A stretch of DNA of 17,053 nucleotides from Candidatus Adiutrix sp. (lineage in GTDB: Bacteria; Desulfobacterota; Desulfarculia; Adiutricales; Adiutricaceae), in contig JAISRV010000395.1 of NCBI GenBank assembly GCA_031273445.1, forward strand, positions 1 through 17,053. Direction: 5' to 3'. The translations under genes were made by a program, and so were the position numbers. The notes beneath the pieces were generated by a model. That model worked only from the letters and a program-made list of their open reading frames with translations, did no database searches and was not told where the DNA came from. Below are positions 1 to 16,272 of the stretch, piece by piece (position 1 is the first letter of the stretch; every line of letters starts with the position of its first letter).

Positions 1-2097
1 CACGTCGCTCTTGTTCAGGCCAAAGTTTCTCATGCCAATATCCGCGGCATCGACGTTTCCGAAGCCGAGAAGATGCCGGGCGTGGTCAAGGTGGTGACCC
101 ACAAGGACGTTAAGGGCAAAAACCGCATCACCGGCCTCATCACCTTTCCTAGCAACCTGGGCGACGGTTGGGATCGCCCGATTCTGTGCGACGAAAAGGT
201 GTTTCAGTACGGCGACGCCTTGGCCCTGGTCTGCGCCGCGACCTTGAAAGAAGCCGAGGCCGCCGCCGCAAAGGTCAAAGTCGACCTGGAAACGCTGCCC
301 GCCTACATGTCGGCTCCGGCGGCTAAAGCCGCTGACGCCATTGAAATTCATCCCGGCACGCCCAACCATTATTTCACCCAGAAACTGGAAAAAGGCGAAG
401 ACACCGCCCCCATCTTCAGCCGCCCCGACGCGGTCGTCGTGGAGGAGAACGTCGTCTCAAGCCGCCAGCCTCACATGCCCATCGAGCCGGATGTGGCCTT
501 CGCTTTTTACAGCGACGACGGCAAGCTGCACATTCATTCCAAGTCCATAGGCGTACATCTGCACCTCTTCATGATCGCTCCGGGCCTGGGCCTGGAACCG
601 GATCAGATCGTTCTGGCCACCAACCCCGCCGGCGGCACTTTCGGCTATAAATTCAGCCCGACCATCGAAGCCCTGGTGGGCGCCGCCACTATGGCTACGG
701 GCCGCCCCTGCCTCCTTGGCTTCAATTATCGGCAGCAGCAGCAGTATACCGGCAAGCGTTCGCCGTTTTTCATCAACATCAAATTGGCCGCCGACAAAAG
801 CGGCAAACTGCTGGGCATGGAGACTGATTTCGATGTCGACCATGGCCCTTATTCCGAATTCGGCGACCTTCTGACCCTGCGCGGCATTCAATTTACCGGG
901 GCCGGATACGACATTCCCAACATACGCGGCGAAGGGCGCACCATTTGCACTAACCATGCCTGGGGTTCGGCTTTCCGAGGCTACGGCGCGCCTCAGTCTT
1001 TTCTGGCTTCCGAGATCGCCATGGATGAACTAGCCGAAAAGTTGGGCATGGACCCTCTGGAACTGCGCTACAAAAACGCCTACCGACCGGGCAGCCTCAA
1101 CATAAGCGGCCAGACGCCGGACTCCTATTCTCTGCCGGAAATGCTTGAAGCCCTGCGTCCTTTATATAAAGCGGCCCGGGAAAAAGCCGAAGCGCAGTCC
1201 ACCGACCAGCATAAAAAAGGGGTCGGCCTTGCCGTTGGCGTCTATGGCAGCGGCCTGGACGGGCCTGACACAGCCGAAGCTTATGTCGAAATGAAGCCGA
1301 ACGGCGTCATTGAGATCGGCACAGCCTGGGAAGATCACGGTCAGGGGGCCGACGCCGGCGCCGTCGGCACGGCGCATGAAGCCTTAAGGCCGATGAAAGT
1401 AGCGGCGGAACGCCTGACCTTTACCTGGCCCGACACGGAGAAACGGCCCAACTCAGGGCCAGCCGGCGGTTCTCGCTCCCAAGTCATGGTCGGCGGCGCC
1501 ATCAAAGCGGCCTGCGAAAAACTTCTGGACGGCGCGCGCAAGAGCGACGGCGGCTATATGACCTATGATGAACTGGTCGCCGCCGGCAAGCCCGTACGCT
1601 ACGACGGCGTCTATTCCGTGCCCGGCGTCAACTGCGACGACAAGGGGCAAGGCAAGCCCTTTATGGTCTATATGTACGGCGTGTTCATGGCCGAAGTCAC
1701 GGTGGAAACGGCTACCGGCAAGACCAAAGTCGACAAGATGACCATGATGTGCGACCCCGGCAAAATCAACAACCGCCTGGTGGTCGACGGTCAGATCTAT
1801 GGCGGCCTAGCCCAGGGCATCGGCCTGGCCTTGACCGAAGATTTTGAAGATATTGAAAAGCACGCCACAATGCTGGGGGCCGGCATTCCCTTTATAAACG
1901 ACGTCCCCGACGACATGGAAATACATTATTTCGAACATGAAAGGGAATTCGGTCCCTTCGGCGCGGCCGGCGTGGGCGAAGTGCCCCTGACCGCTCCTCA
2001 TCCGGCTATACTCAACGCCATTTACCACGCCTGCGGCGCCCGGATCACCCACATCCCGGCTTATCCGGAAAAGGTGCTGGCGGCCATGAAGAAGTAG
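1..2097 (+). CDS. mop: Molybdenum aldehyde oxidoreductase (MOP/xanthine oxidase family), 5' end outside window
   Basis: The frame is open from base 1 and an internal ATG at 73 is not the start; the visible part is 698 residues. D. gigas MOP has about 907 residues, so roughly the first 210 (two [2Fe-2S] domains and linker) lie upstream. The visible part is the molybdopterin-binding region: RQPHMPIEPDVAFAF, GGTFGYKFSP, GSAFRGYGAPQ, GQGADAGAVGTAHEAL and GPAGGSRSQVM cofactor-contact motifs. It ends with GVGEVPLTAPH, whose Glu (codon 1978-1980) matches the catalytic general base of the family. Known family reaction: aldehyde + H2O to carboxylate + 2e- + 2H+ at a Mo-MCD centre, with electrons leaving through the Fe-S clusters. 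The protein is expected in the cytoplasm. It is followed by a terminator and then by genes that probably serve it. The family is very secure; the physiological aldehyde is unknown. Confidence 0.95.
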   Translation, partial: HVALVQAKVSHANIRGIDVSEAEKMPGVVKVVTHKDVKGKNRITGLITFPSNLGDGWDRPILCDEKVFQYGDALALVCAATLKEAEAAAAKVKVDLETLPAYMSAPAAKAADAIEIHPGTPNHYFTQKLEKGEDTAPIFSRPDAVVVEENVVSSRQPHMPIEPDVAFAFYSDDGKLHIHSKSIGVHLHLFMIAPGLGLEPDQIVLATNPAGGTFGYKFSPTIEALVGAATMATGRPCLLGFNYRQQQQYTGKRSPFFINIKLAADKSGKLLGMETDFDVDHGPYSEFGDLLTLRGIQFTGAGYDIPNIRGEGRTICTNHAWGSAFRGYGAPQSFLASEIAMDELAEKLGMDPLELRYKNAYRPGSLNISGQTPDSYSLPEMLEALRPLYKAAREKAEAQSTDQHKKGVGLAVGVYGSGLDGPDTAEAYVEMKPNGVIEIGTAWEDHGQGADAGAVGTAHEALRPMKVAAERLTFTWPDTEKRPNSGPAGGSRSQVMVGGAIKAACEKLLDGARKSDGGYMTYDELVAAGKPVRYDGVYSVPGVNCDDKGQGKPFMVYMYGVFMAEVTVETATGKTKVDKMTMMCDPGKINNRLVVDGQIYGGLAQGIGLALTEDFEDIEKHATMLGAGIPFINDVPDDMEIHYFEHEREFGPFGAAGVGEVPLTAPHPAILNAIYHACGARITHIPAYPEKVLAAMKK

Positions 2098-2112
2098 AGA
2101 CAAACCTTGCTT

Positions 2113-2144
2113 CCGGCGGCGGAGGAGCCCGCCGCCGGCGTTTT
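2113..2144 (+). terminator. Intrinsic terminator after the aldehyde oxidoreductase
   Basis: A perfect 10-bp GC stem (CCGGCGGCGG at 2113-2122, CCGCCGCCGG at 2129-2138) with a 6-nt loop is followed by CG and four T. It lies 15 nt after the stop codon. It should end or attenuate transcription between the oxidoreductase and the downstream cluster. Confidence 0.8.
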
Positions 2145-2196
2145 CCGGCTCTGGTCGCCCCCTGAGATATTGACTCGCCGAACAAACATATCAAGC

Positions 2197-2222
2197 GTGA
2201 TTTCGTCAAAACCAGAAATCAC
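2197..2222. promoter_or_regulatory. Perfect 8-bp inverted repeat, candidate operator
   Basis: GTGATTTC (2197-2204) and GAAATCAC (2215-2222) are exact reverse complements 10 nt apart. They sit about 52 nt upstream of the best promoter candidate, in an otherwise featureless intergenic stretch. The layout fits a dimeric regulator site. A transcribed hairpin is less likely because the arms are AT-rich and no T-run follows. Confidence 0.4.
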
Positions 2223-2273
2223 AATACTTTCGCCGCCTAAGCGTTGCGATATTTAATAGTCAGGTCTATATTC

Positions 2274-2303
2274 TTGTCGGCGACGCCAGTAATGTGCTAT
2301 CAT
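2274..2303 (+). promoter_or_regulatory. Candidate sigma-70-type promoter for the six-gene cluster
   Basis: TTGTCG at 2274-2279 and TATCAT at 2298-2303 are separated by 18 nt, with a TGn extended -10 (2295-2297). Transcription would begin near 2310. This is the only good promoter-like site between the terminator at 2113-2144 and the next gene. It was picked by eye and not scored. Confidence 0.45.
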
Positions 2304-2412
2304 TGAAAACAAACGGCAGAACGGCTTGGCGGAAGGTCGCCCCTGGCCTACGCGCAACCTGACCGCAACCGCCGAACTTGCCGAAATAGCCTCGGCTGCG
2401 GTACGGGCGAAT

Positions 2413-4758
2413 ATGGAACAACAAACCCTTAGACAGTTTGAGGCGCGGTGCATTCAAGACGAACCCCCGGTCTGCCAAACGCAATGCCCTCTGCATGTAG
2501 ACGCCAGGAATCTGGCGCGCCTTATAGCCGGCGGCAAAATCAGCGAAGCCCGCAGGCTCCTTGACCGGACCATGCCCCTGGCCGGCCTCGCCGGATATCT
2601 CTGTGAAGGCCCGTGCCGCGGCCACTGCCGCCGCAGGGAAGTGGACGAACCCATAGATATGCCGCTTCTGGAACGTTTCTGCATTGCCCGGAGCCGTTTC
2701 GCCAAACCCATGCCGCTGCCGCCCACCGGAAAAAAGGCCGCTATATTCGGCAGCGGGCTTTCCTCTTTGGCCGCCGCCTGGGAACTTGGCCGCAAAGGAC
2801 ATTCGGTTCACGTCTTCCACGTCGGCCCGCCGGGGAGATCTCTAATTGATGTTCCTGCGGAAAAATTGCCTGAAACAGCCCTGAAAGAAACCCTTGGACA
2901 ACTGGCCGCCGTTCGGACGACCTTTGAGGCGGCGGAAAATTTCTCGCCCGAGCAGTTGGACTCCGCCAAAAAGAAATTTATGGCCGTTTATCTGGGCTTT
3001 GACGATCCGGCCCTGAAAGCCGTCGATTTCAATATGAGCGAACCTATCCCCGTGGAACCGGCGACTCTGGCCGCCCTGACCGGCCGGATTTTCGCCAGCC
3101 GCGAGCCAAGCTTCATCGGCCAACTGGCGGCCGGCAGAAGAGCGGCCGGTTCTATCGACAGGCTCATGCAGGGCGTATCTCCGGCTACGGCCAGGGAGGC
3201 TGAAGCCACATATCCCACCAAACTTTACACTAATCTGGCCAAGGTGACCGTAAAGCCGCAAAAACCGCCCGCCGACCCTCTGGCGCCCACGCCGGAAGAG
3301 GCGATGGAAGAGGCCGGCCGCTGCATTCAGTGCGAATGTCTTGAATGCGTCAAAAATTGCGCTTACCTGCGCCATTACAAGGGCCACCCAAAAAAATACG
3401 CCCGCGAGATATACAACAACCTATCGGTGGTGCATGGTCTGCGCAAGGCCAACAACATGATCAATTCCTGCGCGGAATGCGGCTTATGCAAGGAAATATG
3501 TCCTCTTGAAGCCGACAGCGGCCAATTCATCGCCAAGGCCCGTCTAGAAATGACGGCCGCCAGCCGCATGCCGCCTTCGGCCCATGAATTCGCTCTGGAG
3601 GACATGCTCTACAGCAACTCGCCCGCCGTCGCTTTTTTCCGTCACCAACCCGGAGCGGATCACAGCGCCTGGCTCTTTTTCCCCGGCTGCCAACTGCCGC
3701 CGTCGCTGCCTGGCGAAACAGCGGCCGTATATGAACACCTGCGCGACCGCTTGGCCGGAGGGGTGGGCTTCGCTTTGGGCTGTTGCGGGGCGCCGGCCAA
3801 ATGGTCCGGTCGCCAAAAACTGACGCAAACCGTGCGGGACGACCTCCACAAGATCTGGGAGGAAGCCGGCCGGCCGCAAGTCATACTGGCCTGTGCTTCC
3901 TGCAGCCTGTTTTTTCAGGCTGAACTAGCCGAAATACCAGCGATTACGCTCTGGGATGTCCTGGCTGAAACGGAACTCCCGGCCACGGGACGCGCGGCCG
4001 CTGAAGAACTGGCTCTGCACGACCCTTGCGCCGCCCGACATGACCCGAAAACGCGCCAAAGCATACGCACAATAGCCCGGCGGCTGGAACAGCCTATAAG
4101 GGAGCTGCCTCTCAGCGGCGAACTGACCCGCTGCTGCGGCTACGGCGGGCTGGCTTCAGCCGCCAACCCCGAAGTCGGCGACCTAATCGCCGGCGACAGG
4201 GCCGGCGACAGCGACCTGACGATGTTGACTTATTGCATCATGTGCCGCGACCGCCTAAAGGGCGTGGGCAAGCCGTCGCTCCACCTGTTGAATCTGCTTT
4301 TTCCTAATGCGCCGATGGAAAAAGCGGCCCTCCGCAAGCCGCCCGGCATCTCCGAACGGCAGGAAGGCAGACTGGAATTCCGCCGCGATCTGTTATTTAA
4401 ATGCTGGGGCGAAAGTCCGGCCCCGGGGTGGCTTATGAATAGTTTTCCCATGCATATATCCGAAGAACTGGCGAGTCGACTTGAACGCCGCCGCATACTG
4501 ACAAGCGATCTGGCGGCCGTCCTCCGGCACGCCAAAGAGCATGGCGCGCAATTTTTCAACCGGGAAACAGGCCGTTATTTGACCAGTTTAAGGCCCCGGC
4601 AGGTAACTTTCTGGGTGGAATACAGCTTGGATGACGACGGCGCCTACACCATTCACGACGCCTATTGTCACCGTATGGTCGTGCCGGGGGTTCCCGGTTG
4701 CGGGGCCGGCAGCCCGGCCAGCCTGGAAGGCTATGCCGCCAAGGGCGGACGCGCCTAA
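2413..4758 (+). CDS. Pyridine nucleotide-disulfide oxidoreductase-like / dicluster-binding Fe-S protein (DVU_1558 type)
   Basis: 781 residues from ATG 2413. The frame also has a TTG at 2326 that would add 29 residues with no recognisable family sequence; neither start has a strong ribosome site, and I prefer ATG because family-like sequence begins there. Residues 1-95 form a GltD-like Fe-S domain (C13, C21, C25, C64, C68, C72). Residues 107-260 resemble a shortened two-dinucleotide-binding flavoprotein fold (IFGSGLSSL, later RIFASREP and SIDRLM). Two ferredoxin-type clusters follow: C304/307/309/312/316 and C353/356/359/363. Two CCG (HdrB/GlpC-like) domains come next, with C426, C457-C458, C494xxC497 and C539, C574-C575, C608xxC611. 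The last 120 residues are a domain I cannot name. Position next to the Mo enzyme suggests electron transfer with it. The dinucleotide fold looks degenerate (see findings). Confidence 0.85.
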   Translation: MEQQTLRQFEARCIQDEPPVCQTQCPLHVDARNLARLIAGGKISEARRLLDRTMPLAGLAGYLCEGPCRGHCRRREVDEPIDMPLLERFCIARSRFAKPMPLPPTGKKAAIFGSGLSSLAAAWELGRKGHSVHVFHVGPPGRSLIDVPAEKLPETALKETLGQLAAVRTTFEAAENFSPEQLDSAKKKFMAVYLGFDDPALKAVDFNMSEPIPVEPATLAALTGRIFASREPSFIGQLAAGRRAAGSIDRLMQGVSPATAREAEATYPTKLYTNLAKVTVKPQKPPADPLAPTPEEAMEEAGRCIQCECLECVKNCAYLRHYKGHPKKYAREIYNNLSVVHGLRKANNMINSCAECGLCKEICPLEADSGQFIAKARLEMTAASRMPPSAHEFALEDMLYSNSPAVAFFRHQPGADHSAWLFFPGCQLPPSLPGETAAVYEHLRDRLAGGVGFALGCCGAPAKWSGRQKLTQTVRDDLHKIWEEAGRPQVILACASCSLFFQAELAEIPAITLWDVLAETELPATGRAAAEELALHDPCAARHDPKTRQSIRTIARRLEQPIRELPLSGELTRCCGYGGLASAANPEVGDLIAGDRAGDSDLTMLTYCIMCRDRLKGVGKPSLHLLNLLFPNAPMEKAALRKPPGISERQEGRLEFRRDLLFKCWGESPAPGWLMNSFPMHISEELASRLERRRILTSDLAAVLRHAKEHGAQFFNRETGRYLTSLRPRQVTFWVEYSLDDDGAYTIHDAYCHRMVVPGVPGCGAGSPASLEGYAAKGGRA

Positions 4759-4829
4759 GGCGGGGAATGAATTTATTGATCTGCCTGGACGACCGCAATG
4801 GCGCCTGTTCTAACGCTGAAGGAGACCGG

Positions 4830-5042
4830 ATGAAAGCCGAACTGCGCGGCATCAAAGCCGAAGGCTGGCTCTGCCGGAATTGCCGTGAGCCGCTTCAGCC
4901 GATGCCGGTCAACATAACCTATATGGGTTCAAGCTTCCAGGTTGAACTGCCGCGTTGCCCGACCTGCGGCTATACTTTTATTCCGCCCGACCTGGCTTAC
5001 GGCAAAATGCTGGAAGTCGAAAAACTGCTTGAAGACAAATAG
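4830..5042 (+). CDS. Small two-CxxC redox or zinc-ribbon protein (DVU_1557 / CLJU_RS11820 type)
   Basis: 70 residues from ATG 4830, chosen because AAGGAG at 4819-4824 is well placed; an upstream in-frame ATG at 4767 would give 91 residues. Two pairs, C15xxC18 and C43xxC46, with a helical, charged C-terminus (LEVEKLLEDK) indicate a rubredoxin- or zinc-ribbon-like metal site. I recall this short family only as a 'redox protein' found beside the dicluster oxidoreductase, which fits its position here, 71 nt after that gene. Direct function is unknown; an electron carrier or a metal-bound scaffold are both possible. Confidence 0.75.
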   Translation: MKAELRGIKAEGWLCRNCREPLQPMPVNITYMGSSFQVELPRCPTCGYTFIPPDLAYGKMLEVEKLLEDK

Positions 5043-5056
5043 ATAGAGCCGGCAAC

Positions 5057-5076
5057 CCCGCGTAACGCGGGCTTTT
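5057..5076 (+). terminator. Short terminator-like hairpin between redox and methyltransferase genes
   Basis: CCCGCG (5057-5062) and CGCGGG (5066-5071) form a 6-bp all-GC stem with a 3-nt TAA loop, followed by C and four T. It starts 14 nt after the redox-gene stop and just before a GAGAGG ribosome-site-like sequence (5077-5082). It could attenuate transcription into the distal four genes. The T-run is short, so readthrough is likely. Confidence 0.5.
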
Positions 5077-5133
5077 GAGAGGCGCTTCATCATATCCGCC
5101 CGCGTCGACGACATCCTCCCTGTTTGGACGGCC

Positions 5134-5778
5134 TTGCGTCAGGTTCTGGGCGACGCGTTGCGGCCCGGCGGCCTGGAACTGACCCGCGAAGCAGTGGAAC
5201 TATGCGGTTTTCCGGCCGGCGCCAGGCTTCTGGACCTTGGCTGCGGCCCCGGCGCTACGCTGGAGTATCTGCTGGCGCAAGGTTATGCGGCTCAAGGCGT
5301 GGAACAGTCTCCGATCTTTATTGAAGAAGCCTCCCGGCGCGGGCCAGTCCTTTACGCCGATTTCCATCGGCTGCCCCTGCCCGACCGTTATGCCGACGGC
5401 ATTCTATGTGAATGTTCTTTGAGCCTGGCCGCGGACAAAGCCGTGGTGTTGCGCGAGTGCCGCCGGACCCTGAAAGAGGGGGGACGGCTGATAGTCAGCG
5501 ATCTGTTTAGAAAAAACAGCCAGGCCAGGGCCATAGGCGGATGCGCGGCCGGCGCCGTGACCATGGACGAGCTGGCGACCTTAATGAAAACGGCGGGGTT
5601 CATTGTGCTGGCGCAACGCGACTATGGGGAAGCTCTTAAAGTTCTGGCCGCCCGCCTGATCTGGCATTTCGGGTCGGCTGAAAAAATCTCTGAACTATGG
5701 TCGGCGCACGGCGCCTGCCGACCGGGCCGGGACTTCACCTATGCGCTGTTGATAGCGGGAAAGGCAAGTCATGATTGA
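5134..5778 (+). CDS. SAM-dependent class I methyltransferase (DVU_1556 type)
   Basis: 214 residues from the TTG at 5134. The SAM-binding glycine motif LDLGCGPG is at residues 33-40, the acidic end of strand 2 is in GVEQS (55-59), and the post-motif region includes LPLPDRYADGILCECSLSL. A Cys-containing GGCAAGAVT segment (about 135-143) replaces the usual substrate loop. The reading frame is open and protein-like back to 5047, including VDDILPVWTALRQVLG, but has no ATG, GTG or TTG before 5134, so the true start may be a rare codon near 5089-5094 behind GAGAGG (5077-5082). It overlaps the next gene by 8 nt, implying translational coupling. The methyl acceptor is unknown; context suggests a cofactor or cluster-maturation step. 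Confidence 0.8.
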   Translation: MRQVLGDALRPGGLELTREAVELCGFPAGARLLDLGCGPGATLEYLLAQGYAAQGVEQSPIFIEEASRRGPVLYADFHRLPLPDRYADGILCECSLSLAADKAVVLRECRRTLKEGGRLIVSDLFRKNSQARAIGGCAAGAVTMDELATLMKTAGFIVLAQRDYGEALKVLAARLIWHFGSAEKISELWSAHGACRPGRDFTYALLIAGKASHD

Positions 5779-6244
5779 CGACGCCAGGATTATGATAATG
5801 GAACTGGCCGCCCTGGGTTATTCCTGCGCCCAGATAGTGATGATCGGAGGATTGCGTCTTATGGGCCGCGAAAATCCGGATCTGGTGCGGGCCATGGCCG
5901 GTCTGGCCGGCGGGGCCTCCTGCGGAGCCATCTGCGGCGCCCTTACGGGAGGCATCAGCCTTATTTCCCTGCATACGGCCAAAGGTCTGGACGACGAGCG
6001 CCCGCTCCCCGGCGGCCGCACTCTGGCAGGCGCCCTGATCAAATGGTTCAAAGAGGAAGAGCTGGGCGGCCGCGTCGGTCTGAATTGTTCCGATATTTTC
6101 GAAGCGGCCGGTCAGTCGTTGGACAATGGCGAAATGAACCCGGCCGCCGGATGCGGCGAACTGGTGGAACACGCTTGGATCAAGGCGGTGCAGATTTTGA
6201 CCGAGAACAACATAGACCCTTCCCTGGGGCGCGACGAGTCATGA
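5771..6244 (+). CDS. C-GCAxxG-C-C family redox protein (DVU_1555 type)
   Basis: 157 residues. The family pattern is visible: GYSCAQIV with C19, then AGGASCGAICGALTGG with C51 and C55, then C106 and C128. Members are small helical proteins thought from their conserved cysteines to bind a metal or do thiol redox chemistry; no activity is assigned. The ATG at 5771 lies inside the end of the methyltransferase gene, and the stop TGA (6242-6244) overlaps the next ATG as ATGA, so it is translated as part of a coupled block. The length is normal for the family, and all cysteine positions use Cys codons. Confidence 0.8.
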   Translation: MIDDARIMIMELAALGYSCAQIVMIGGLRLMGRENPDLVRAMAGLAGGASCGAICGALTGGISLISLHTAKGLDDERPLPGGRTLAGALIKWFKEEELGGRVGLNCSDIFEAAGQSLDNGEMNPAAGCGELVEHAWIKAVQILTENNIDPSLGRDES

Positions 6245-7632
6245 CTGAACCAGGCCCGGCGCTATCGGCCACTGAAAGTCTATGCCCTGTCTGCCTGAAA
6301 GTTCTTCCTGCGGAAATAAGGCGTCGGGGCGAAGAGATAATTTTGTCGCGCGTCTGCCCCGAACATGGCCCTTGGGCCGAGGTTATCTGGCGGGGCGAGC
6401 CGGCTTTTGAAAAATGGCGCCGGCCTAAAGCGGCGGCGGAAGGAATAAAGCGCCAAACATCGCACGACCGCGGCTGCCCCTTCGACTGCGGCATTTGCCC
6501 CGGCCACGCACAAAAATCGTGCGCCGTGCTGTTTGAAATCACCGGGCGTTGCAATCTCAAATGCCCGGTCTGTTTCGCCGACGTCAATGAAAAAAAAGCC
6601 GAAACGGCCTTTACGCCGCTTCCGGCGTTGCTTGAGCAATTGCGCTGGATCAGGCGGCAGGCCGGAGCCGTGGTTCTGCAACTTTCCGGCGGCGAACCCA
6701 CCTTATATCCGGATCTGCCGTCGCTTGTCCGTGAAGCCGCGGCCCTGTTTCCGGCCGTGCAGCTCAACACCAACGGCCTTAGGCTGGCCGAGAAGCCGGC
6801 TCTGGCCCATGATCTGGCCGAAGCCGGCCTGTCCTGGGTTTTTCTGCAATTTGACGGGGTCAGCGACCGGGTCTTCGAGATAATGCGTGGCCGCCCTCTG
6901 CTGGAAAAGAAGAAAGATGTTGTGGCCGCCTGCCGTGAAGCCGGCCTTAGCGTGGTGTTGACGCCGACCGTGGCCGCCGGTATCAATGACGGCGAGCTGG
7001 GTGAACTGGTGCGTCTGGCCATCTCTTGGGCGCCGACGGTAAGAGGCGTTCATATTCAGCCCATGACCTCGTCAGGGCGCAATCATCTGGCCGGGGCCGC
7101 GCATCGTCTGACTCTGCCGGAAACCCTTTCCAGGCTTCAAGAGCAAACCAACGGCCTGGTGAAGCCGGAACAAGCTTCCCCGCCCGGCTGCGAACATGAA
7201 CGATGCTCCTTCCACCTGCGCTACCGCCTGACTGAAGGCGGCGTTCTCGCCCCGTTGCCGGGCGATAAGGGCTGCGGCTGCGGCCCTCCGGATGAGGCGG
7301 CCTGTTCGCCGGCGGAAACGGAACGCAGTCTCCGCCGCTCTATTGAAACAGTCATCCGCAGTTGGCGTCAGCCGGCCATTCCCATGGCCGCTAACGCGCA
7401 AACCGCGCCAGACGCCTTTGACGAGTTCATCAATAAAGCCAGCCGCGAAACATTCAGCATAACCGCCATGGCTTTCCAGGACGTCTGGACCGTGGACCTC
7501 AAAAGATTGCAAGGCTGTTGCGTCCATGTCTTCGTCCCTCCCGCGTCCCTGATCCCCTTCTGTTCTTTCAATCTGACCTCGTCCGACGGTCGTCCTCTTC
7601 ATCGTAAGCCAAATGATCATGCCCGGATCTGA
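6241..7632 (+). CDS. trsS: Radical SAM protein, TrsS type
   Basis: 463 residues from ATG 6241 (ATGA overlap); the frame is open further upstream but the overlap start fits the family. Residues 15-45 (CPVC then CPEHG) look like an N-terminal metal-binding ribbon. C79, C83, C86 and C94 precede the radical SAM motif CNLKCPVC (C104, C108, C111). LSGGEPT at 148-154 is the SAM-contact GGE motif. Further cysteines (317, 322, 345, 347, 426-427, 441) suggest extra Fe-S clusters. The N-terminal layout resembles the archaeal tetraether-lipid-synthase (MJ0619-like) branch of radical SAM enzymes. As I recall, the family name is 'radical SAM (seleno)protein TrsS' because some members carry selenocysteine; here every site is Cys. 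The substrate is unknown; the neighbours suggest cofactor or small-molecule modification. Confidence 0.85.
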   Translation: MTEPGPALSATESLCPVCLKVLPAEIRRRGEEIILSRVCPEHGPWAEVIWRGEPAFEKWRRPKAAAEGIKRQTSHDRGCPFDCGICPGHAQKSCAVLFEITGRCNLKCPVCFADVNEKKAETAFTPLPALLEQLRWIRRQAGAVVLQLSGGEPTLYPDLPSLVREAAALFPAVQLNTNGLRLAEKPALAHDLAEAGLSWVFLQFDGVSDRVFEIMRGRPLLEKKKDVVAACREAGLSVVLTPTVAAGINDGELGELVRLAISWAPTVRGVHIQPMTSSGRNHLAGAAHRLTLPETLSRLQEQTNGLVKPEQASPPGCEHERCSFHLRYRLTEGGVLAPLPGDKGCGCGPPDEAACSPAETERSLRRSIETVIRSWRQPAIPMAANAQTAPDAFDEFINKASRETFSITAMAFQDVWTVDLKRLQGCCVHVFVPPASLIPFCSFNLTSSDGRPLHRKPNDHARI

Positions 7633-9043
7633 CGAAAAAAACAGTCCCTGGCTGGATCTTCAACTGCTGAACCGCCTTCCCGCCGATCTGCGAGAAAGCC
7701 GGCCGGAAGCGTCTCTGGCTCACTTCCGGGTTCGTCTCCTAAAGCGCACGATTGAACACGCGATAGGCCGCTCGCCGCATTATCGGCGTCAGATGGAGGC
7801 CGCCGGGGCCGCGCTGGAAATATTGACGGCCGTCAAAACGCATGACGACGCCTCAACAGTGGAGCGCCTGATTCAGGCCGCCTTGGCTTGTTTGCCTTTC
7901 ACTCGGCCGGATGAACTGGCCGCCGCCCCTGATGATTTTCTGGCCGTATCCCAGACCGAAGTGGAGGGCGTCATCAGCTTGCCCAGTTCCGGCAGCACCG
8001 GCCCGGTGAAACGGGTTTATTCAAGCGCTTCGGACCTCGAGTCCACGGTTGATTTTTTCTTCCACGGCATGCGCGGCCTGGTTTCGCTGAAAAACGGCGA
8101 CCGGGCGGCTTTGATGATGTCAGGAGACCGCCCGGGCAGCGTAGGCGACCTGCTAAGCAGGGCCATGGCCAGGCTGCGGATACCTATGATGTTGGCCGGC
8201 TTCCCGCCGCAAGAGGCGGGAAGCCGGCCAACATGGCTAAAAAAACTTATCGACTGGCGGCCCAGTTGCCTGGTGGGCCTCCCCCGGCAGGTGCTGGAAC
8301 TGTCAAGATGCCGTCTGGCCGCGTCTTTGTCTCCCGGCCTGCGAACGATTCTCCTGAGCGGAGATGTGGTCGCCGAATCTGCCCGGCGGCATTTGGCCGA
8401 CGCGCTGACCGCCGAGGTATTTATTCATTACGGGCTGACCGAGTTCGGCCTGGGAGGGGCGGTGGAATGCCGGGAACGCCTCGGCCCTCACCTGCGGGAA
8501 GCCGACCTCCTGGTCGAAATAATCGGCCCGGACGGCCGCACGGTCAACGAAGCCGGCCGGCGAGGCGAAATAGTCATCACCAGCCTGACCCGGCAGGCCA
8601 TGCCTCTTTTGCGTTACCGCACCGGCGACGAAGGCGCCTTCGCCCCCGGACCTTGCGCCTGCGGCTCCATCATGAGACGCCTTTTGACTTTTGGCCGTCT
8701 GGCTGACCGCATTAGCCTGGCGGACGGCCGCCATCTCGGCCTCTCAGATTTTGAAGAAGCCCTGCTGCCGCTTCCCTTCGTGCGCTGGTTTGAATTGACG
8801 CTCCATGAAGACGGCCTCCGCCCCTATCTGGTTCTGGCGGCCTCGCTGGCCGAGCCTCCTCCGGCCAACGCCCTTGACCTTATCGCCAAGGCCCTGTCAG
8901 GCTTGTCCGGCCTTCATCCGGCGGCGAATCTGGAAAAAACGTTCCCCTCCGCCCTTCTGCCCCTATTGGTGACCATAGCTGACGACAGCCGAAAAAGAAA
9001 CATGACCGGCAAGCAGACCCTGAAAAAAGCAAGCCCGACTTAG
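7613..9043 (+). CDS. AMP-dependent CoA ligase / adenylate-forming enzyme (PaaK-like, DVU_1553 type)
   Basis: 476 residues; the ATG at 7613 overlaps the radical SAM gene by 20 nt (a second ATG lies at 7619). Adenylation motifs are in order: SSGSTG at 125-130 (phosphate loop), IHYGLTE at 271-277 and RYRTGD at 334-339, followed by a Cys-rich CACG turn (348-351). GKQTL near the C-terminus lies where the family has its catalytic-lysine segment. Phenylacetate-CoA ligase relatives convert a carboxylate, ATP and CoA into acyl-CoA, AMP and PPi. It could activate the acid produced by the aldehyde oxidoreductase or a precursor of an unknown cofactor; the sequence does not decide. A perfect 20-bp inverted repeat encodes residues 193-207. 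It is the last plus-strand gene, facing the convergent channel gene. Confidence 0.85.
   Translation: MIMPGSDEKNSPWLDLQLLNRLPADLRESRPEASLAHFRVRLLKRTIEHAIGRSPHYRRQMEAAGAALEILTAVKTHDDASTVERLIQAALACLPFTRPDELAAAPDDFLAVSQTEVEGVISLPSSGSTGPVKRVYSSASDLESTVDFFFHGMRGLVSLKNGDRAALMMSGDRPGSVGDLLSRAMARLRIPMMLAGFPPQEAGSRPTWLKKLIDWRPSCLVGLPRQVLELSRCRLAASLSPGLRTILLSGDVVAESARRHLADALTAEVFIHYGLTEFGLGGAVECRERLGPHLREADLLVEIIGPDGRTVNEAGRRGEIVITSLTRQAMPLLRYRTGDEGAFAPGPCACGSIMRRLLTFGRLADRISLADGRHLGLSDFEEALLPLPFVRWFELTLHEDGLRPYLVLAASLAEPPPANALDLIAKALSGLSGLHPAANLEKTFPSALLPLLVTIADDSRKRNMTGKQTLKKASPT
8189..8234. repeat. Perfect 20-bp inverted repeat inside the ligase gene
   Basis: The left arm (8189-8208) and right arm (8215-8234) are exact reverse complements with a 6-nt loop (GCAAGA). 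The arms are GC-rich and centre on GGCCGGCTTCCCGCC. The element lies wholly within the coding frame, which stays open through it. An A7 run starts 5 nt after the right arm. Confidence 0.9.
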
Positions 9044-9257: not shown

Positions 9258-11600
9258 TCATCGCGCTGATTCAGCGCCCGCGTCCGAGTTGCGCTTACGA
9301 GTCGCCGCCTGGTCATCGACCTTCCGCCCTTTGAACAAAAACAGATTCTGCCCGAAACAGGTTGATTTTATGCCGGCCCTCAACAAAGCCTTTTTCAGGC
9401 GCAAGCGGAGTTCGCGCCCAACGGCCCACTGTTGCCCGGCCGAAGTGGAAATACTCAGACGTATGGTGGTGCCGTCGGCATCAAAAGCCGTAACGCCGAC
9501 AAGACGGGTGGGAGCTATCAGATGCTCTTTCCACTTCGGGTCTTGGTCCAGTTCGGCGGCCGCTTCCGCGGCCAGTTCCATCATGGCCTCAGGATCCGCA
9601 TCGTAGGGCACGACCAAGTCGATTAGATCCTGCGAATAATCACGGGTCATGTTGACGATATCGGTCACGCTGCTGTTAGGCACGACAACCAGGTTGCCGG
9701 ATGAATCGCGCAACCGTATGGTGCGCAAGCCCACTTCCTCGACCGTGCCGCTTCGGCCGCCTATTGAGACATAGTCGCCCACCGACAGCGTGTCCATAAG
9801 CAGTATGGAAATGCCGTTAATGAGATCCTTGACCAACGACTGGGCGCCCATGCCCACCCCCAGGCCTAAAATGCCGGCCCCGGCCAAAATAGGCCCGATA
9901 TTTACGCCCAGTCTTTCCAGTATAACCACCGTGCCCACAAAGACGGCCAGAGCCCTGGCCGCGGTCAGCAGCAAAGGCGTCACTGTGCGCCAGTTGCGGT
10001 TCTGGGTGAAACCGGGAACCGACAGCAGCCATTCCGTGGCCAAGCGGCTGAATCTGATGAAAACGGCCAGAACCGTAACAACCACGGCAATGGCAAACCC
10101 GCGCGAGACTATTTCACTTATCACTTGATTTTCAATAATTGCGCCCAGCGGCGCTCCCCAGATGCTCAAGATCGTCGCAAAAACCACCAGCCAGACCAGA
10201 ATATTCGTCAGGGCGTCGGTGGTCAGAAGCAACCTGCGGCCCTGTTCCTGGCCGCGCTCCACCAGACGCGACATGACCGCCCGTTGCAGCTTAACCGCCA
10301 GAACTCCGGCGGCCATGACCGCAAACGAGCCGAGGAGGCAGTAGACAAAGCGATTGGAGGCGCTGACAGGATTGAGGATAAATACCAGCGAGGCCCCCCA
10401 GACGCAGACGACGGCCAGGGAAGGCCAATGAGCCTGAAAAAACAGGTCAGCCCGGTAATCGACAGCGGGCGCCTGGGTCGGGCCGGTTGCGCCATCTTCA
10501 TCTTCCGTCAGGCCGTCGGCGCTGAAGTCGTCGCCGGCCAAAACTTCAGCCCCGCGCGCCGCCTGAACCAGCCGTTTCAATTTTTTTAACCTAAAGGTCA
10601 GATATATGGGCGCGGGCACGACCATGAAGCCTAAAATCAGGGCATACAGAGCCTCGGAGGTGAAATTTTCCAAGAAGGTCTCTTTAATAAATACATAAAC
10701 GGCCAGATATATGACTAAAAATCGCCAACTGCCCAGAAAATGCCGCGCCAGGGCCGGGGGCAGGTCGATGACGGCCAAATCGTCATTGTTGCGGGCGAAC
10801 AGAACGTCCGCCATCCTAAGGCCTATATAGAGAAGTGAAAAGTTGACGAAAAAATGCTGAGCCAGGGCATAAAAGAAAGAAAAGCCTATGGCCATATTGG
10901 CCGTAATCCCGGACGCGGCGGCGGAAGGCGGGGGTATGGCCAGAAAAGAGGCGATCAAAATCAGGTTGGGGCCGGCCATTATCGCCAGGTAACGGCAGAC
11001 GGCCAAGAGGCGGCTCCTGAAAATGGGCTTGAATTTAGGCAGGGCGCCGCCATATCTGCCGATGACGGCCTTGGCGGCCAGAAGGCATACCAGGCCCCAG
11101 ATAAATATCTTTAGGATATAAGGCTGCCACATCCGCACGGTTTCAGGTCTGACCAGAACGGCGAGAACCTCTTGAAAGGTCTCTCGGGACTGGTTGAATC
11201 CGCTGCCTGCGGACTGCAGCTGCCGGAAAGCGCCGCTCGCCCGGCTCCGCAGCCAGACCGCCGCGCCGGACATTCCGGCCCCGCCGACGCTCAGATTTTC
11301 CGTCACGACCGCAGCTTGGTCGCCCGCGGCCGTCTCCGCTGAAGCTGTTTCGTTATTTATGACGGCCATCAATTTCAGAAGCCTGACGACTTCAGCTCTC
11401 CGTTCTTCATCTTCCAGAATATCAATGGTCTTCTGAATATTGTCCGGGACGTCGGCCGGGGCGGCCTCTTCGGCCAAGGCCGGCCAGGCCGCCAGGCCCG
11501 GCGGCATAAGCAGTAAAAAGGCCGCCGCCGCCAGCCTGATGAGGCGACCATAAAGCGCGTTAAGCGTCAGCGTCATAATCCACCTGTTAAAGTCGAGCAT
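9258..11600 (-). CDS. MscS-family mechanosensitive ion channel, large multi-TM type
   Basis: 780 residues. An N-terminal signal peptide (about residues 20-43, ending ALA-EE) is followed by a periplasmic region to about 155 and roughly eleven hydrophobic segments between 160 and 600. The last segment, IGPILAGAGILGLGVGMGAQSLVKDLINGI (568-597), is the pore-lining TM3 of MscS with its Gly/Ala packing pattern. The beta domain follows (GDYVSIGGRSGTVEEVGLR, VVVPNSSV), then the C-terminal alpha/beta domain. This family sits in the inner membrane and opens under tension to release solutes on osmotic downshock. It is longer than MscS and shorter than MscK. ATG 11576 (AGGTGG just upstream, residue 9) is an alternative start and gives a tidier signal peptide. 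The gene is transcribed alone and converges on the ligase. Confidence 0.92.
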   Translation of the reverse strand: MLDFNRWIMTLTLNALYGRLIRLAAAAFLLLMPPGLAAWPALAEEAAPADVPDNIQKTIDILEDEERRAEVVRLLKLMAVINNETASAETAAGDQAAVVTENLSVGGAGMSGAAVWLRSRASGAFRQLQSAGSGFNQSRETFQEVLAVLVRPETVRMWQPYILKIFIWGLVCLLAAKAVIGRYGGALPKFKPIFRSRLLAVCRYLAIMAGPNLILIASFLAIPPPSAAASGITANMAIGFSFFYALAQHFFVNFSLLYIGLRMADVLFARNNDDLAVIDLPPALARHFLGSWRFLVIYLAVYVFIKETFLENFTSEALYALILGFMVVPAPIYLTFRLKKLKRLVQAARGAEVLAGDDFSADGLTEDEDGATGPTQAPAVDYRADLFFQAHWPSLAVVCVWGASLVFILNPVSASNRFVYCLLGSFAVMAAGVLAVKLQRAVMSRLVERGQEQGRRLLLTTDALTNILVWLVVFATILSIWGAPLGAIIENQVISEIVSRGFAIAVVVTVLAVFIRFSRLATEWLLSVPGFTQNRNWRTVTPLLLTAARALAVFVGTVVILERLGVNIGPILAGAGILGLGVGMGAQSLVKDLINGISILLMDTLSVGDYVSIGGRSGTVEEVGLRTIRLRDSSGNLVVVPNSSVTDIVNMTRDYSQDLIDLVVPYDADPEAMMELAAEAAAELDQDPKWKEHLIAPTRLVGVTAFDADGTTIRLSISTSAGQQWAVGRELRLRLKKALLRAGIKSTCFGQNLFLFKGRKVDDQAATRKRNSDAGAESAR

Positions 11601-11771: not shown

Positions 11772-12503
11772 TTAAAAACGCCTCAGCAACTCTTCAACAC
11801 CCGGCCATAGCCGTCGCCCATATTCCAACCCTCTGGCATGGTGATCACCGAAGTTACAGCTTAATTCAGGGCGCAAGAAGCCGTTTGGTTCCATCGTACG
11901 CACAGCAGGGGTATTAGCCAGGGTGACCTTTAATGCTTCCAAAGCCGTTTTGAACAGAACCGCGCACAAGTTATGAATATAAAGAACCGTGTGCGGCGGA
12001 ATCCCGGCAACCGCGCCCTCGTGGAAAAAGGAAGGCGGCGGAACGGGGATCACGAAAAACCGGTGCCTGGTTCGCAAAAACTTCTTTATGACTTCGACTC
12101 TCAGCCGTACTTCGGGAAGGATCCTCTCTACGACCTCATTTAAAGATATCGGCTCCCTCTGCTGATCGACTGGAGCCAGGTCAGCGGGATAGCGGCTCAG
12201 CCAAATGGGGTCATCCACCGCATGGTGCCAACTGCCAAGCGAAAGACCGATAACCCGGTCGGGGTCATATTTTATCAAAGTTTGATTATAGGCATTCAGG
12301 CAGGCTTGTTTCAAGTTGGGATGTTTGAGGCAATCAATGTCCCCAGTGGCATTGACGTCGACCGCGAATGAAAAATCCAGGTCGGAACAGGAGACGATTT
12401 TTAGGCGGCAACCAGCCGGCAAAAGGCGTTTTCCGTTGTCGCCATTCAACAGGCTGATGAGGCTATTGTGATGGCTTCCGCCAAGGAGCAATAGTTCTTT
12501 CAT
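11772..12503 (-). CDS. SGNH/GDSL hydrolase-like protein
   Basis: 243 residues from the ATG at 12503, which overlaps the GSCFA stop as ATGA; the open frame extends 12 codons further but the overlap start is convincing. LLLLGGSHHNSL at 4-15 gives a nucleophile-type Ser10. GLSLGSWHH (86-94) sits where the family has its oxyanion-hole block, and GDHHARGLEYG (219-229) supplies the Asp/His pair (D220 with H221 or H222). Such enzymes are usually carbohydrate or lipid esterases/acyltransferases. No signal peptide is seen, so it probably acts in the cytoplasm. The coupling to a GSCFA protein suggests a common glycan substrate. Base composition is more AT-rich than the plus-strand cluster. Confidence 0.7.
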   Translation of the reverse strand: MKELLLLGGSHHNSLISLLNGDNGKRLLPAGCRLKIVSCSDLDFSFAVDVNATGDIDCLKHPNLKQACLNAYNQTLIKYDPDRVIGLSLGSWHHAVDDPIWLSRYPADLAPVDQQREPISLNEVVERILPEVRLRVEVIKKFLRTRHRFFVIPVPPPSFFHEGAVAGIPPHTVLYIHNLCAVLFKTALEALKVTLANTPAVRTMEPNGFLRPELSCNFGDHHARGLEYGRRLWPGVEELLRRF

Positions 12504-14179
12504 TTTCGACCGAAGGCCTCCAATAGTGCTTCGTCGCATTGTTCTTCAGGCGCCTGAGCGACGGCTATCTGAACCGGACTTTGGGTGGTCACAGCCGCAG
12601 CGGGTGCGGCACGGTAACCGTGGGCGCTCAGGAAGCGCGACATGATAAAGTCAACCACTTCCGGCTTCACGCCCCGCAGATTGTCCTGAAACGCGCCTCG
12701 GGCAAACGGAATGGATGAAATAATGTCATAGGACGGGAAGTAATCGACGAAATCATATTTTTCGTAAAACTCCAGAGCGACGGCCCGGAGCACCGCCTTG
12801 GAGCGCATGGTCGCCACCAGAACATGGTCCTGACTGGCCGTGGCGGTTAAGGGCACAGGAGAAACGGTAAGTAGAATTTTGAGATCGGGCTTGATTTCGC
12901 GCAGTTCCGCGATCAGGGCTTCAAGATCATCTTTTATTTCCCGATAGGTAAAATTCTTGAACTCATATTTAGCTTCATTAAATACACCGGCCGCTGTGCC
13001 GGGGCACATGGGGTAGACCGCCCCATCATGTTTGTGGCGCCAGGCTTCGGTCAGCCCCATGGTGAAGATCATCAGTTCAGCGTCTTCAAACAGGCGACGG
13101 ACGGCCCGCAGGTGGCTGGCACGCATCACTTGGGCTTCCCGCAAAGAAAAATAGCCGGATGGCTCAATGGTCGGCCGAAAGGGATCATACCAACGGCCGT
13201 TGTCGGCCCAAAAGTCTTCCTGCGGGCTGAAGCGGCCAAACGCCCTGAGAAACAGTTGTCGCAACTGCCTGGCAGTGTAGATGTTGCCGTAGCGGGCCGA
13301 ATACAGGTCATAGCCCATGTCTTGGGCCGGTTGGGCCAGGTAATGCGGCCGCTTGAAGGCCGGTTCATAATCCAGGAACCCAAAAGCGTTTTCTTTCAAA
13401 ACCCGGCCGATATGTTGCGCGAAGCAACTGCCGACGCTCATGATTTTGGTCTGTTTATCGAGGTCATACTTTTTTCGGTAAAGGTCAGCCAATTGCGCGG
13501 GCATGCGCTGGGCCACCGCTGTTTTCCAGTATTTTGTATCCGTACTCAAATCTGAATAGGGATTGTCGCGCAACTCTTTCTTTTCTTCGGCCAGCCCCAT
13601 ATAGGCCAACATTTTATCAGACTGATCAAGCAGTCGCTTAAAAGAAGGCCAGCGGCGAAACCTCTGCCGAGCTTCCACTATCGGCCAATGAAAAGAATAT
13701 GAAGTCCAGGTCAGTTCCCGGCCTTTACAATTGGTTGCTGCTTGCGCGTAATAGTCTTTGGCTGATTCCACATCTCCTGAAATGAGGTGGAATTGTGACC
13801 GCATGAAGTTCAGTTCAGCGGATATGGCGAAGCCGTCTGATAGCGCCTTTTCAATAAGACTTAGGCCGTCTTGAGCCTTTTGACGATCATATTCAATCGC
13901 GATAGTCAGATACAAGGCCACCGCCTTCAGAACGCCATCCGGGTCAATGGGGCTATTTGCGGAAAGACCGAGCAACAGACAACGGGACGCCATACTCAGC
14001 ATTTCATGGCGTTTATAAGCCCAGGTTTCTCGACGGCTGTATTCGCCCAACTTGTCGGCCGCCGCTTCCAAATCGGCCACAGTTTCTATGCGCAAATTGG
14101 ATACGGCGCCATTATCTTGGACGGCAAGGCTTGTTTTAAGAACATCCAGGTCTTTCTGTAGTTCGTTTAGGTCATTCAT
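12500..14179 (-). CDS. GSCFA-domain protein (SGNH-like) with N-terminal helical region
   Basis: 559 residues. Residues 1-200 are mostly helical and resemble a TPR-type repeat (SISAELNFMRSQFHLISGDVESAKDYYAQAA region, about 119-148). The signature GSCFA is at 250-254 in KIMSVGSCFAQHIG. It is followed by the expected TARQL, WYDPFRP, FTMGLTEAW (372-380) and TVSPVPL (438-444) blocks. GSCFA domains belong to the SGNH hydrolase clan and are linked to polysaccharide biosynthesis; biochemical proof is scarce. The C-terminal block reads DNLRGVKPEVVDFIM, lacking the His I expect there. It is the first gene of a two-gene unit, starting 28 nt from the end of an IS66 relic, and has no obvious promoter of its own. 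Confidence 0.85.
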   Translation of the reverse strand: MNDLNELQKDLDVLKTSLAVQDNGAVSNLRIETVADLEAAADKLGEYSRRETWAYKRHEMLSMASRCLLLGLSANSPIDPDGVLKAVALYLTIAIEYDRQKAQDGLSLIEKALSDGFAISAELNFMRSQFHLISGDVESAKDYYAQAATNCKGRELTWTSYSFHWPIVEARQRFRRWPSFKRLLDQSDKMLAYMGLAEEKKELRDNPYSDLSTDTKYWKTAVAQRMPAQLADLYRKKYDLDKQTKIMSVGSCFAQHIGRVLKENAFGFLDYEPAFKRPHYLAQPAQDMGYDLYSARYGNIYTARQLRQLFLRAFGRFSPQEDFWADNGRWYDPFRPTIEPSGYFSLREAQVMRASHLRAVRRLFEDAELMIFTMGLTEAWRHKHDGAVYPMCPGTAAGVFNEAKYEFKNFTYREIKDDLEALIAELREIKPDLKILLTVSPVPLTATASQDHVLVATMRSKAVLRAVALEFYEKYDFVDYFPSYDIISSIPFARGAFQDNLRGVKPEVVDFIMSRFLSAHGYRAAPAAAVTTQSPVQIAVAQAPEEQCDEALLEAFGRK

Positions 14180-15942: not shown

Positions 15943-16272
15943 TCAATACAAATGAAGGACAAGAGCGCCGGCGACAACTAAAATCGGCGCATTGCCGATA
16001 TCCCAGGTATTATTATAGTTCGCCCCGGATTTCGGTTTGGCTTTATTGCCGTCGATAATCCAGGTATTATTAAAATTTGCCCCTGACTTGGGTTTTAGTT
16101 CTTTGCCGTCAAAAACCCAGGTATTATTGAAATTTGCCCCTGACTTGGGTTTTAGCTCTTTGCCGTTAAAAACCCAGGTATTACTAAAGTTTGCCCCTGA
16201 TTTAGGTTTTAGCTCTTTGCCGTCGCACAACCAGCCGGAAATTTCTTTGCCGTTCCACGCTAATTTTGGCAT
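15943..16272 (-). CDS. Small tandem-repeat protein, beta-flower-like
   Basis: 109 residues with AGGAG placed just upstream of the ATG. A 19-residue unit, DGKELKPKSGANFNNTWVF, recurs four times (residues 17-92) after a degenerate first unit (NGKEISGWLC), giving five in all. The protein ends in a hydrophobic strand, APILVVAGALVLHLY. Repeats of the form G..LKPK.G....TW... are what I recall from proteins annotated as '5-fold beta-flower', in which each unit is a beta-hairpin petal; five units match that count. There is no signal peptide and the function is unknown. It starts 16 nt after the preceding gene, so the two are surely co-transcribed. The gene is visibly more AT-rich than the flanking membrane-protein gene. 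Confidence 0.7.
   Translation of the reverse strand: MPKLAWNGKEISGWLCDGKELKPKSGANFSNTWVFNGKELKPKSGANFNNTWVFDGKELKPKSGANFNNTWIIDGNKAKPKSGANYNNTWDIGNAPILVVAGALVLHLY
16003..16230 (-). repeat. Four 57-bp tandem repeats within the beta-flower gene
   Basis: CCAGGTATTA-type unit starts occur at 16003, 16060, 16117 and 16174, exactly 57 bp apart, and a decayed fifth begins at 16231 (CCAGCCGG). The two central units are nearly identical at DNA level; the outer ones have diverged more. The period is a multiple of three, so unit gain or loss keeps the frame. Confidence 0.9.

Follow-up and report, generated by a model that had tools for sequence, protein, structure and literature searches.

We examined a 17,053-nucleotide stretch of DNA, here called the window, which is the entire contig JAISRV010000395.1 (C346). 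The draft genome it comes from is 72% complete, spans 2.79 Mb in 439 contigs, and has as its closest named relatives genomes of Candidatus Adiutrix, a bacterium of termite guts. Its first 9,043 positions carry seven plus-strand genes in the order AOR-DIC-RED-MT-CGC-TrsS-LIG, in which a molybdenum aldehyde oxidoreductase is followed by, among others, a radical S-adenosylmethionine (SAM) protein, a methyltransferase and an acyl-adenylating ligase. Our tentative preference, held at less than even confidence, is that the set contains a portable biosynthetic module that makes a small organic group on, or for, the small protein RED, as part of a redox chain of RED and DIC, and that the molybdenum centre of AOR is left unaltered. 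We infer this mechanism from features read directly in the DNA and its relatives, namely gene order and its conservation, co-occurrence, the restriction of RED to genomes with TrsS in our sample, sets of metal ligands, ligase motifs and gene fusions. LIG would adenylate a carboxylic acid; TrsS would take hydrogen from an unactivated carbon and, in the manner of the archaeal tetraether lipid synthase Tes, form a carbon-carbon or carbon-sulfur bond via its C-terminal auxiliary cluster; and MT would add a methyl group that finishes the product. The group would end on RED or nearby, RED being its likeliest carrier or client, and AOR, or the enzyme that replaces it, would then exchange electrons with DIC and RED.

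All seven genes score above the curated NCBIfam cut-off of their own family, which bears out the assignments made in an earlier reading of the letters (the sequence-only reading). The genes and their parts are as follows.

1..2097, plus strand: AOR, molybdopterin-dependent aldehyde oxidoreductase of the Desulfovibrio gigas MOP type, 5' end missing at the contig edge (NF045668, 1213 bits, cut-off 1100; PDB 1sij/1vlb, 1111 bits).
2413..4758, plus strand: DIC, a protein with Fer4_20, a flavin-type Rossmann motif, a 4Fe-4S dicluster and CCG (NF045663, 895 bits, cut-off 530; Pfam).
4444..4686, plus strand: DCT, the C-terminal domain of DIC; where a locus lacks this AOR, it is a gene of its own or joined to a DVU_1557 domain.
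4830..5042, plus strand: RED, DVU_1557 / DUF7479 zinc-ribbon-like protein of 70 amino acids with C-terminus LEDK (NF045645, 95 bits, cut-off 60).
5028..5039, plus strand: the C-terminal LEDK of RED, its Lys invariant in 82/82 non-redundant stand-alone relatives.
5134..5778, plus strand: MT, SAM methyltransferase of the DVU_1556 family (NF045667, 198 bits, cut-off 155; alignment A6).
5771..6244, plus strand: CGC, C-GCAxxG-C-C protein of the DVU_1555 family (NF045669, 119 bits, cut-off 103).
6241..7632, plus strand: TrsS, Tes-type radical SAM protein (NF045646, 525.9 bits, cut-off 490; 7tol, 384 bits with profile A1).
6550..6573, plus strand: radical SAM cluster motif CX3CX2C of TrsS, residues 104, 108 and 111, invariant in alignment A1 and in 150/150 rows.
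7613..9043, plus strand: LIG, acyl-adenylating (PaaK-like) ligase of the DVU_1553 family (NF045666, 315 bits, cut-off 300; PaaK 4r1l, 235 bits with profile A2).

The AOR match spans positions 208-905 of the 905 of NF045668; the window starts inside the gene, whose 5' quarter is therefore missing, and the N-terminal part, where two [2Fe-2S] domains would be expected, lies off the contig end. For DIC, the ATG at 2413 is a more likely start than the TTG at 2326; the corrected start of RED is the ATG at 4830; and the TTG at 5134 is the sole start available to MT, whose N-terminus seems short and is uncertain. The single relevant PDB match of CGC is split-Soret cytochrome c (1h21, E=1.8e-4). The coordinates confirm the gene overlaps of 8 (5771-5778), 4 (6241-6244, ATGA) and 20 nucleotides (7613-7632) that the sequence-only reading had reported, and the numbering it gave for the set, DVU_1553-1559, agrees with four NCBIfam names (1553, 1555, 1556 and 1557).

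The set has been noticed before: NCBIfam already names its gene families (DVU_1553-1557, diclust_near_Sec and TrsS), the names carrying no reaction, and TrsS is attributed to Haft & Tolstoy 2025 in the table of a review (PMC13188914). Our literature searches for the set or its function found no function. Our TrsS scan covered each species by a single genome and gave at least 567 confirmed places, of which we used the best 80 loci, a choice biased towards the window's kind. The gene order is conserved in these best 80, which by their record titles come from Desulfobacterota, Bacillota (Acetobacterium, Lacrimispora and Desulfotruncus), Chloroflexota, Synergistota, Campylobacterota and Pseudomonadota. 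Because the same order recurs in several phyla, it reflects more than chance, and the conservation claimed in the sequence-only reading is upheld. Counts were made on the 54 loci with at least 6.5 kb of upstream and at least 1.5 kb of downstream flank; the 26 with less were left out (9 with AOR, 1 with a tungsten-type aldehyde oxidoreductase of the AFOR family, 1 with AFOR and an enzyme of the dimethyl sulfoxide (DMSO) reductase family, and 15 cut). AOR is present in 50 of the 54, an AFOR-family enzyme in two, a DMSO-reductase-family enzyme in one and none in one (L019), where no oxidoreductase is visible because the contig begins at the edge of DIC. DIC or its C-terminal piece lies within 9 kb of TrsS in 53 loci; by the same measure MT is present in 52, CGC in 52, LIG in 51, and RED, as an open reading frame (ORF) of its own, in 49, RED being fused to DIC or DCT in some of the loci. 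These counts support the functional tie between the set and the oxidoreductase that the sequence-only reading had drawn; the outcome it had named as telling against that tie, downstream genes occurring mostly without the oxidoreductase, is not what the loci show.

A phylum sample drawn evenly gave TrsS over cut-off in 33 of 297 genomes. As loci L101-L127, 27 of these 33 comprise 17 with AOR (including L124, a contig-end piece of a divergent kind), one with AOR and AFOR, one with AFOR, one with a divergent AOR and a DMSO reductase, two with enzymes like 2-hydroxyglutaryl-CoA dehydratase (HGD), two with none and three cut. TrsS and the ligase are fused in three loci. In the genome G005, LIG lies on a separate contig (L099, L100). 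A pair of genes that look transposase-like by eye follows TrsS at the place expected for the ligase (L014:11525-13210 and L099:12121-13806), the ligase being found at L100:3904-5274.

We consider RED, on its sequence and distribution, the likeliest candidate for client or carrier of the module. Among 148 genomes of the phylum, 19 have a match to the family, and in 15 of these the match is over the cut-off. TrsS is also over cut-off in 14 of the 15; the remaining one, G097, carries a TrsS split between two frames. The genomes with the four weak matches have no TrsS over cut-off. Extra RED copies that lack MT, TrsS and LIG occur as AOR-DIC-RED (L097, G021) and as DCT-RED (L190, G132), with a full or near-full set elsewhere in the genome, as expected of an arrangement of a client and its makers. 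In a residue census of the 82 non-redundant stand-alone proteins, the four cysteines never vary in the rows that align there (80-82), Glu51 is kept in 81, Glu55 in 80 and Lys57 in all 82; the C-terminal lysine thus appears at least as constant as the cysteines. Lys57 is the last residue in 79/82, and two residues follow it in L112, L113 and L114; therefore, it is the side chain and not the terminal carboxylate that is constant. Its codons vary (AAA in 47, AAG in 32).

EDK ends 129 of the 131 RED ORFs that score above 60 bits to our own profile, a set that leaves out eight weaker ones (among them L112, L113, L114 and L190, which do not end in Lys), as well as 56/56 database relatives, the window's own included. 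The commonest last triplet in the neighbours accounts for 16/130 AOR, 10/144 DIC, 5/148 CGC, 5/146 MT, 8/165 TrsS and 3/151 LIG proteins, and by these counts no neighbour family has a constant tail like that of RED; the last residue of AOR is Lys in 76/130. Ten ORFs of the DIC family also end in EDK: one is a DCT-RED fusion (L046), and the other nine, two of which share one sequence, are fusions of DIC with RED. DIC keeps its flavin-type Rossmann motif, and its GltD-like halves stand only about 120 residues apart in both the consensus and the window sequence; by comparison with GltD-like proteins, DIC probably lacks the NADPH domain. Some public sources label RED relatives 'DNA-binding protein' or 'ribosomal protein S27AE', perhaps on account of the zinc ribbon.

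That the module would be portable is suggested by its occurrence beside other enzymes. In loci without AOR, DIC is usually shrunk to its last ~85 residues (DCT), alone or fused to RED, and a short Fer4-CCG protein sometimes stands beside DCT. An AFOR-family enzyme lies near the core in L046 and L070, identified by family models, and in L042 and L101, identified by similarity to those, with a contig-end piece in L041. DMSO-reductase-family enzymes lie near the core in L041, L087 and L094, the last also with flavin and 4Fe-4S subunits, and HGD-like proteins in L112 and L114 (with BadF-type ATPases) and in L185. L113 and L127 have no such partner enzyme within 9 kb, and L093 has a full DIC, RED, CGC, TrsS, LIG and a class-V aminotransferase without AOR or MT. 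We placed these loci on a TrsS tree built by a quick method with a midpoint root, in which 165 TrsS/Tes-like rows were reduced to 106 at 70% identity (L042, L046 and L070 are not rows). AOR-linked TrsS are clustered, with 12 label changes versus 28.2 in shuffles. Nested among the AOR-linked TrsS, at two separate positions, are the AFOR and the DMSO-reductase loci (support values 90 and 91, short of the 95 mark); an outer group consists of the HGD-type and stand-alone loci. From this topology, the partner enzyme seems to have been exchanged at least twice. At L122:8525-12715, a divergent AOR (755 bits, own profile) has a DsrC-like protein and a class-V aminotransferase as neighbours, which might form a sulfur relay at a TrsS locus.

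The exchange of partners bears on two other explanations. One, possible though on balance improbable, is that AOR makes an acid, LIG activates it, and TrsS and MT remodel the acyl chain to yield a free metabolite or a catabolic intermediate. That AFOR takes the place of AOR in four of the loci above, with the piece in L041, speaks for this, since the use of two unrelated enzymes for one type of reaction hints that the acid is what counts; the TrsS-ligase fusions and the motifs of LIG are also in its favour, the ATP-binding loop TSGTTGxxKR, RYRTGD and the C-terminal Lys all being intact, with K467 invariant in the 19 sequences of alignment A2. Loci with DMSO-reductase-family or HGD-like enzymes or without an oxidoreductase (L087, L094, L112, L113, L114, L127), however, are no obvious acid makers, no constant catabolic genes were seen beside the set, and the tail of RED is left unexplained. 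The pathway for an aldehyde-derived acid put forward in the sequence-only reading may hold, given that AFOR replaces AOR at some loci and the ligase motifs are intact; modification of RED, which that reading did not contain, is at least as good an account. The other explanation, which we find quite unlikely, is that the oxidoreductase, be it AOR, AFOR, DMSO-reductase-family or HGD-type, whichever is available, serves as the low-potential electron donor to TrsS. The alternating enzymes are all able to work at low potential, and DIC, the short Fer4-CCG protein and ferredoxins sit between or beside the oxidoreductase and the core, but a dedicated AOR seems, purely as an argument, an excessive reductant for one radical SAM enzyme.

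The AOR of the window leads to one of the best-studied molybdenum enzymes. A 309-residue stretch of PDB 1SIJ is 100% identical to genome G547, which is hence taken as D. gigas, and the locus there (L144, CRYSTALLISED enzyme) runs AOR, DIC, RED, MT, CGC, TrsS, LIG and XdhC, and so holds the same seven genes as the window. Over 697 residues the window AOR scores 1111 bits against D. gigas MOP (1SIJ/1VLB), and the residue that aligns with Glu869 is likewise Glu; the window copy differs in lacking the 5' quarter cut off by the contig edge. In the part of PMC10223205 available, Glu869 is described as catalytic, and the enzyme as having a cytosine-dinucleotide molybdopterin, two iron-sulfur centres and oxygen ligands in a 1.28 A structure, as active without a sulfido ligand, and as having flavodoxin for a putative partner. 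The genes suggest DIC, not flavodoxin, as the partner of AOR, and DIC is its probable electron-transfer partner.

We examined the co-occurrence of AOR and TrsS in family f45, which holds D. gigas and is taken as Desulfovibrionaceae; 212 of its 288 genomes have some match to the AOR stretch, and from this survey 69 genomes and 40 loci were picked by hand for few contigs and a spread over genera. TrsS lies in the fetched stretch in 33 of the 40 AOR loci; three are cut by a contig end (L159, L164, L171), and four are without it (L150, L154, L165, L173). All four of the latter genomes hold TrsS elsewhere: beside a second AOR copy in G593 (L188), in a set ~22 kb from AOR in G486 (L187), on a different contig in G346 (L186) and alone in G422 (L184). 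Among hand-chosen AOR genomes with at most ten contigs, TrsS is present in 49/49, and it is lacking in 14 of the 15 chosen genomes without this AOR, the exception, G360, having two TrsS in tandem (Fisher p=1.2e-13, with the four exceptions counted positive and kinship uncorrected). Within f45 the link between AOR and TrsS is nearly absolute. We considered whether the separate TrsS of G422 is a moved gene and rejected this, as the tree groups it with the distant TrsS of L122, a different copy. Extra AOR copies at L195:2551-3705 and L191:3286-4434 adjoin genes that resemble, by eye, iron-containing alcohol dehydrogenases, which would fit aldehyde substrates derived from alcohols.

Sister AORs scoring 740-826 bits, below the cut-off of 1100, occur in 10 of the 60 nearest genomes. 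Five of these (G044, G049, G050, G054 and G058) have no TrsS over cut-off; the other five (G040, G043, G047, G048 and G051) have it, and four of them also hold a separate over-cut-off AOR. The link of TrsS is to one AOR clade. The sister AORs bear on whether the module modifies or repairs the molybdenum or tungsten cofactor, or the iron-sulfur centres, of AOR and its substitutes, a maturation system of the kind that the sequence-only reading had offered as its other option and that we now consider unlikely. It would suit the alternation of three unrelated Mo/W-pterin families near the core, the XdhC and MocA-like maturation genes that follow the set in many loci, the near-absolute co-occurrence just described, and the presence of MoaC in 7/7 tested genomes that have the core without an adjacent Mo/W enzyme; because MoaC is in all seven, a search for core genomes without Mo cofactor synthesis does not discriminate. 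The five sister AORs without TrsS over cut-off disfavour it, as do L112 and L114, where the core lies beside HGD-D/BadF-type genes with no Mo enzyme nearby, and the Adiutrix-like genome G005 (L099, 95% complete), which has AOR and TrsS and no MoaC match. D. gigas AOR comes from a full-set genome and has molybdopterin cytosine dinucleotide (MCD), two Fe-S centres and oxygen ligands, with no need of a sulfido ligand (PMC10223205, available in part); because it is ordinary at 1.28 A, a lasting modification of AOR centres by the set is unlikely.

Several observations weigh against our proposal that the module serves RED. Six of the ten EDK-ending DIC-family ORFs lack, by the pattern used, an intact first CxxC in their RED part, although the tail is kept, and the invariant lysine can alternatively be read as a docking tail. 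PaaK-like enzymes usually yield free acyl-CoA. CGC went undetected in several AOR-less loci. G004, a genome outside f45 that is 94% complete, has AOR, DIC, RED, MT, CGC and LIG and no TrsS over cut-off, perhaps because TrsS is dispensable, perhaps because the draft is incomplete. The methionine that TrsS shares with Tes (Met439) is weak evidence of function, and our literature searches turned up no published product, substrate or RED modification.

With these points in mind, the set connects a much-studied molybdenum enzyme with a radical SAM module and places a bacterial enzyme of the Tes type in a genomic setting. Within the literature that we searched, the link to D. gigas, the census of Tes ligands, the exchange of partners and the tail of RED are new. 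Since RED has ~70 residues and occurs over cut-off solely with TrsS in our sample, the question of the product becomes testable in tractable Desulfovibrio. The rest of the window holds a gene, convergent with the operon, for a mechanosensitive channel of the MscS type whose N-terminal part is long (9258-11600), a GSCFA-family protein gene (12500-14179, 175 bits) whose end is overlapped on the same strand by an unassigned 255-aa ORF, and a short protein made of ~4 copies of a 20-residue repeat (KPKSGANFNNTW) with no Pfam match (15943-16272).

A more specific form of our proposal, which we regard as doubtful, makes RED the lysine carrier of a new protein-bound cofactor. LIG, whose acyl acceptor may be CoA or a protein lysine, would acylate the C-terminal Lys of RED, TrsS would build carbon-sulfur or carbon-carbon bonds in the way of Tes and LipA, MT would cap the product, and RED would carry electrons or acyl groups between the oxidoreductase and DIC. 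The logic resembles that of LipA and lipoyl carriers by general-knowledge analogy, in that both would pair an adenylating ligase and a lysine carrier with a radical SAM enzyme that makes bonds to carbon with an auxiliary cluster; it differs in that no sequence kinship is claimed, RED as carrier being our own suggestion and sulfur insertion coming from the analogy. Were RED such a carrier, four decades of work on D. gigas AOR would have missed the enzyme's real partner.

The closest comparison for TrsS itself is with Tes (GDGT-MAS, MJ0619), its best solved relative (PDB 7TOL, 384 bits with the ten-sequence profile A1). We took the Tes ligands of four metal sites from PMC9433317, available in part, and checked them in 150 TrsS rows; these include five pairs fetched twice, and the 145 rows under 99% identity gave the same result. 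TrsS keeps the rubredoxin site CX2CX20CX2H (C9, C12, C33 and H36 in 149/150), the N-terminal cluster (C73, C77 and C80 with His83, 150/150), the radical SAM cysteines (150/150), the C-terminal cluster cysteines (C455 and C470 in 150/150, C456 in 141/150) and the labile Met439 (150/150). Judged by position, His83, C98, C455, C456 and C470 would be metal ligands. Tes stores the radical formed on its first substrate by bonding that carbon to sulfur of the C-terminal cluster; TrsS possesses the parts for radical storage of the same kind.

Coupling of acyl or alkyl chains into membrane-spanning lipids, as archaeal Tes performs it, is nonetheless a highly improbable function for TrsS. The kinship with Tes and the kept metal ligands are what recommends it. 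Tyr459, strictly conserved in 1,000 archaeal Tes in the available part of PMC9433317, is Tyr in 0/150 TrsS rows (Val in 114, Ile in 19, other residues, namely Thr, Glu, Cys, Ser, Gln or Ala, in 17), which suggests a different substrate. The same source reports the Tes variants Y459F, Y459L and M439A as still active, and therefore neither the loss of Tyr459 nor the kept Met decides the chemistry of TrsS. A lipid role also leaves the link to AOR and RED unexplained, and separate over-cut-off relatives of Tes exist in the same phylum. One of these, at L131:7439-9088 (G204), encodes a protein with 587 bits to the Tes model (cut-off 450) and is either a genuine bacterial Tes or archaeal contamination; Tes homologues exist in bacteria not known for biphytanyl chains (PMC9433317, in the part available). 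Tandem pairs of distant TrsS/Tes-like genes stand at L136:7519-10380 and L137:8526-11416 beside a class-V aminotransferase (cysteine desulfurase fold), one of the two aminotransferases having a rhodanese domain.

NCBIfam describes TrsS as a (seleno)protein family in which selenocysteine is not required of members; no selenocysteine form is among the listed matches, the window TrsS has no in-frame TGA, and the sole TGA among the listed over-cut-off TrsS (G422) is a natural stop. Against the NCBIfam Tes model (NF045702) the window TrsS reaches 302 bits, below the cut-off of 450. It differs from Tes in leaving the Tes stretch 330-445 without a match, in adding the invariant C160, H337 and C388 (in the numbering of the long ORF, which begins at 6043), and in its genomic context of AOR, RED and a ligase. 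By these likenesses and differences, TrsS is a Tes-type radical SAM enzyme, probably with a different job.

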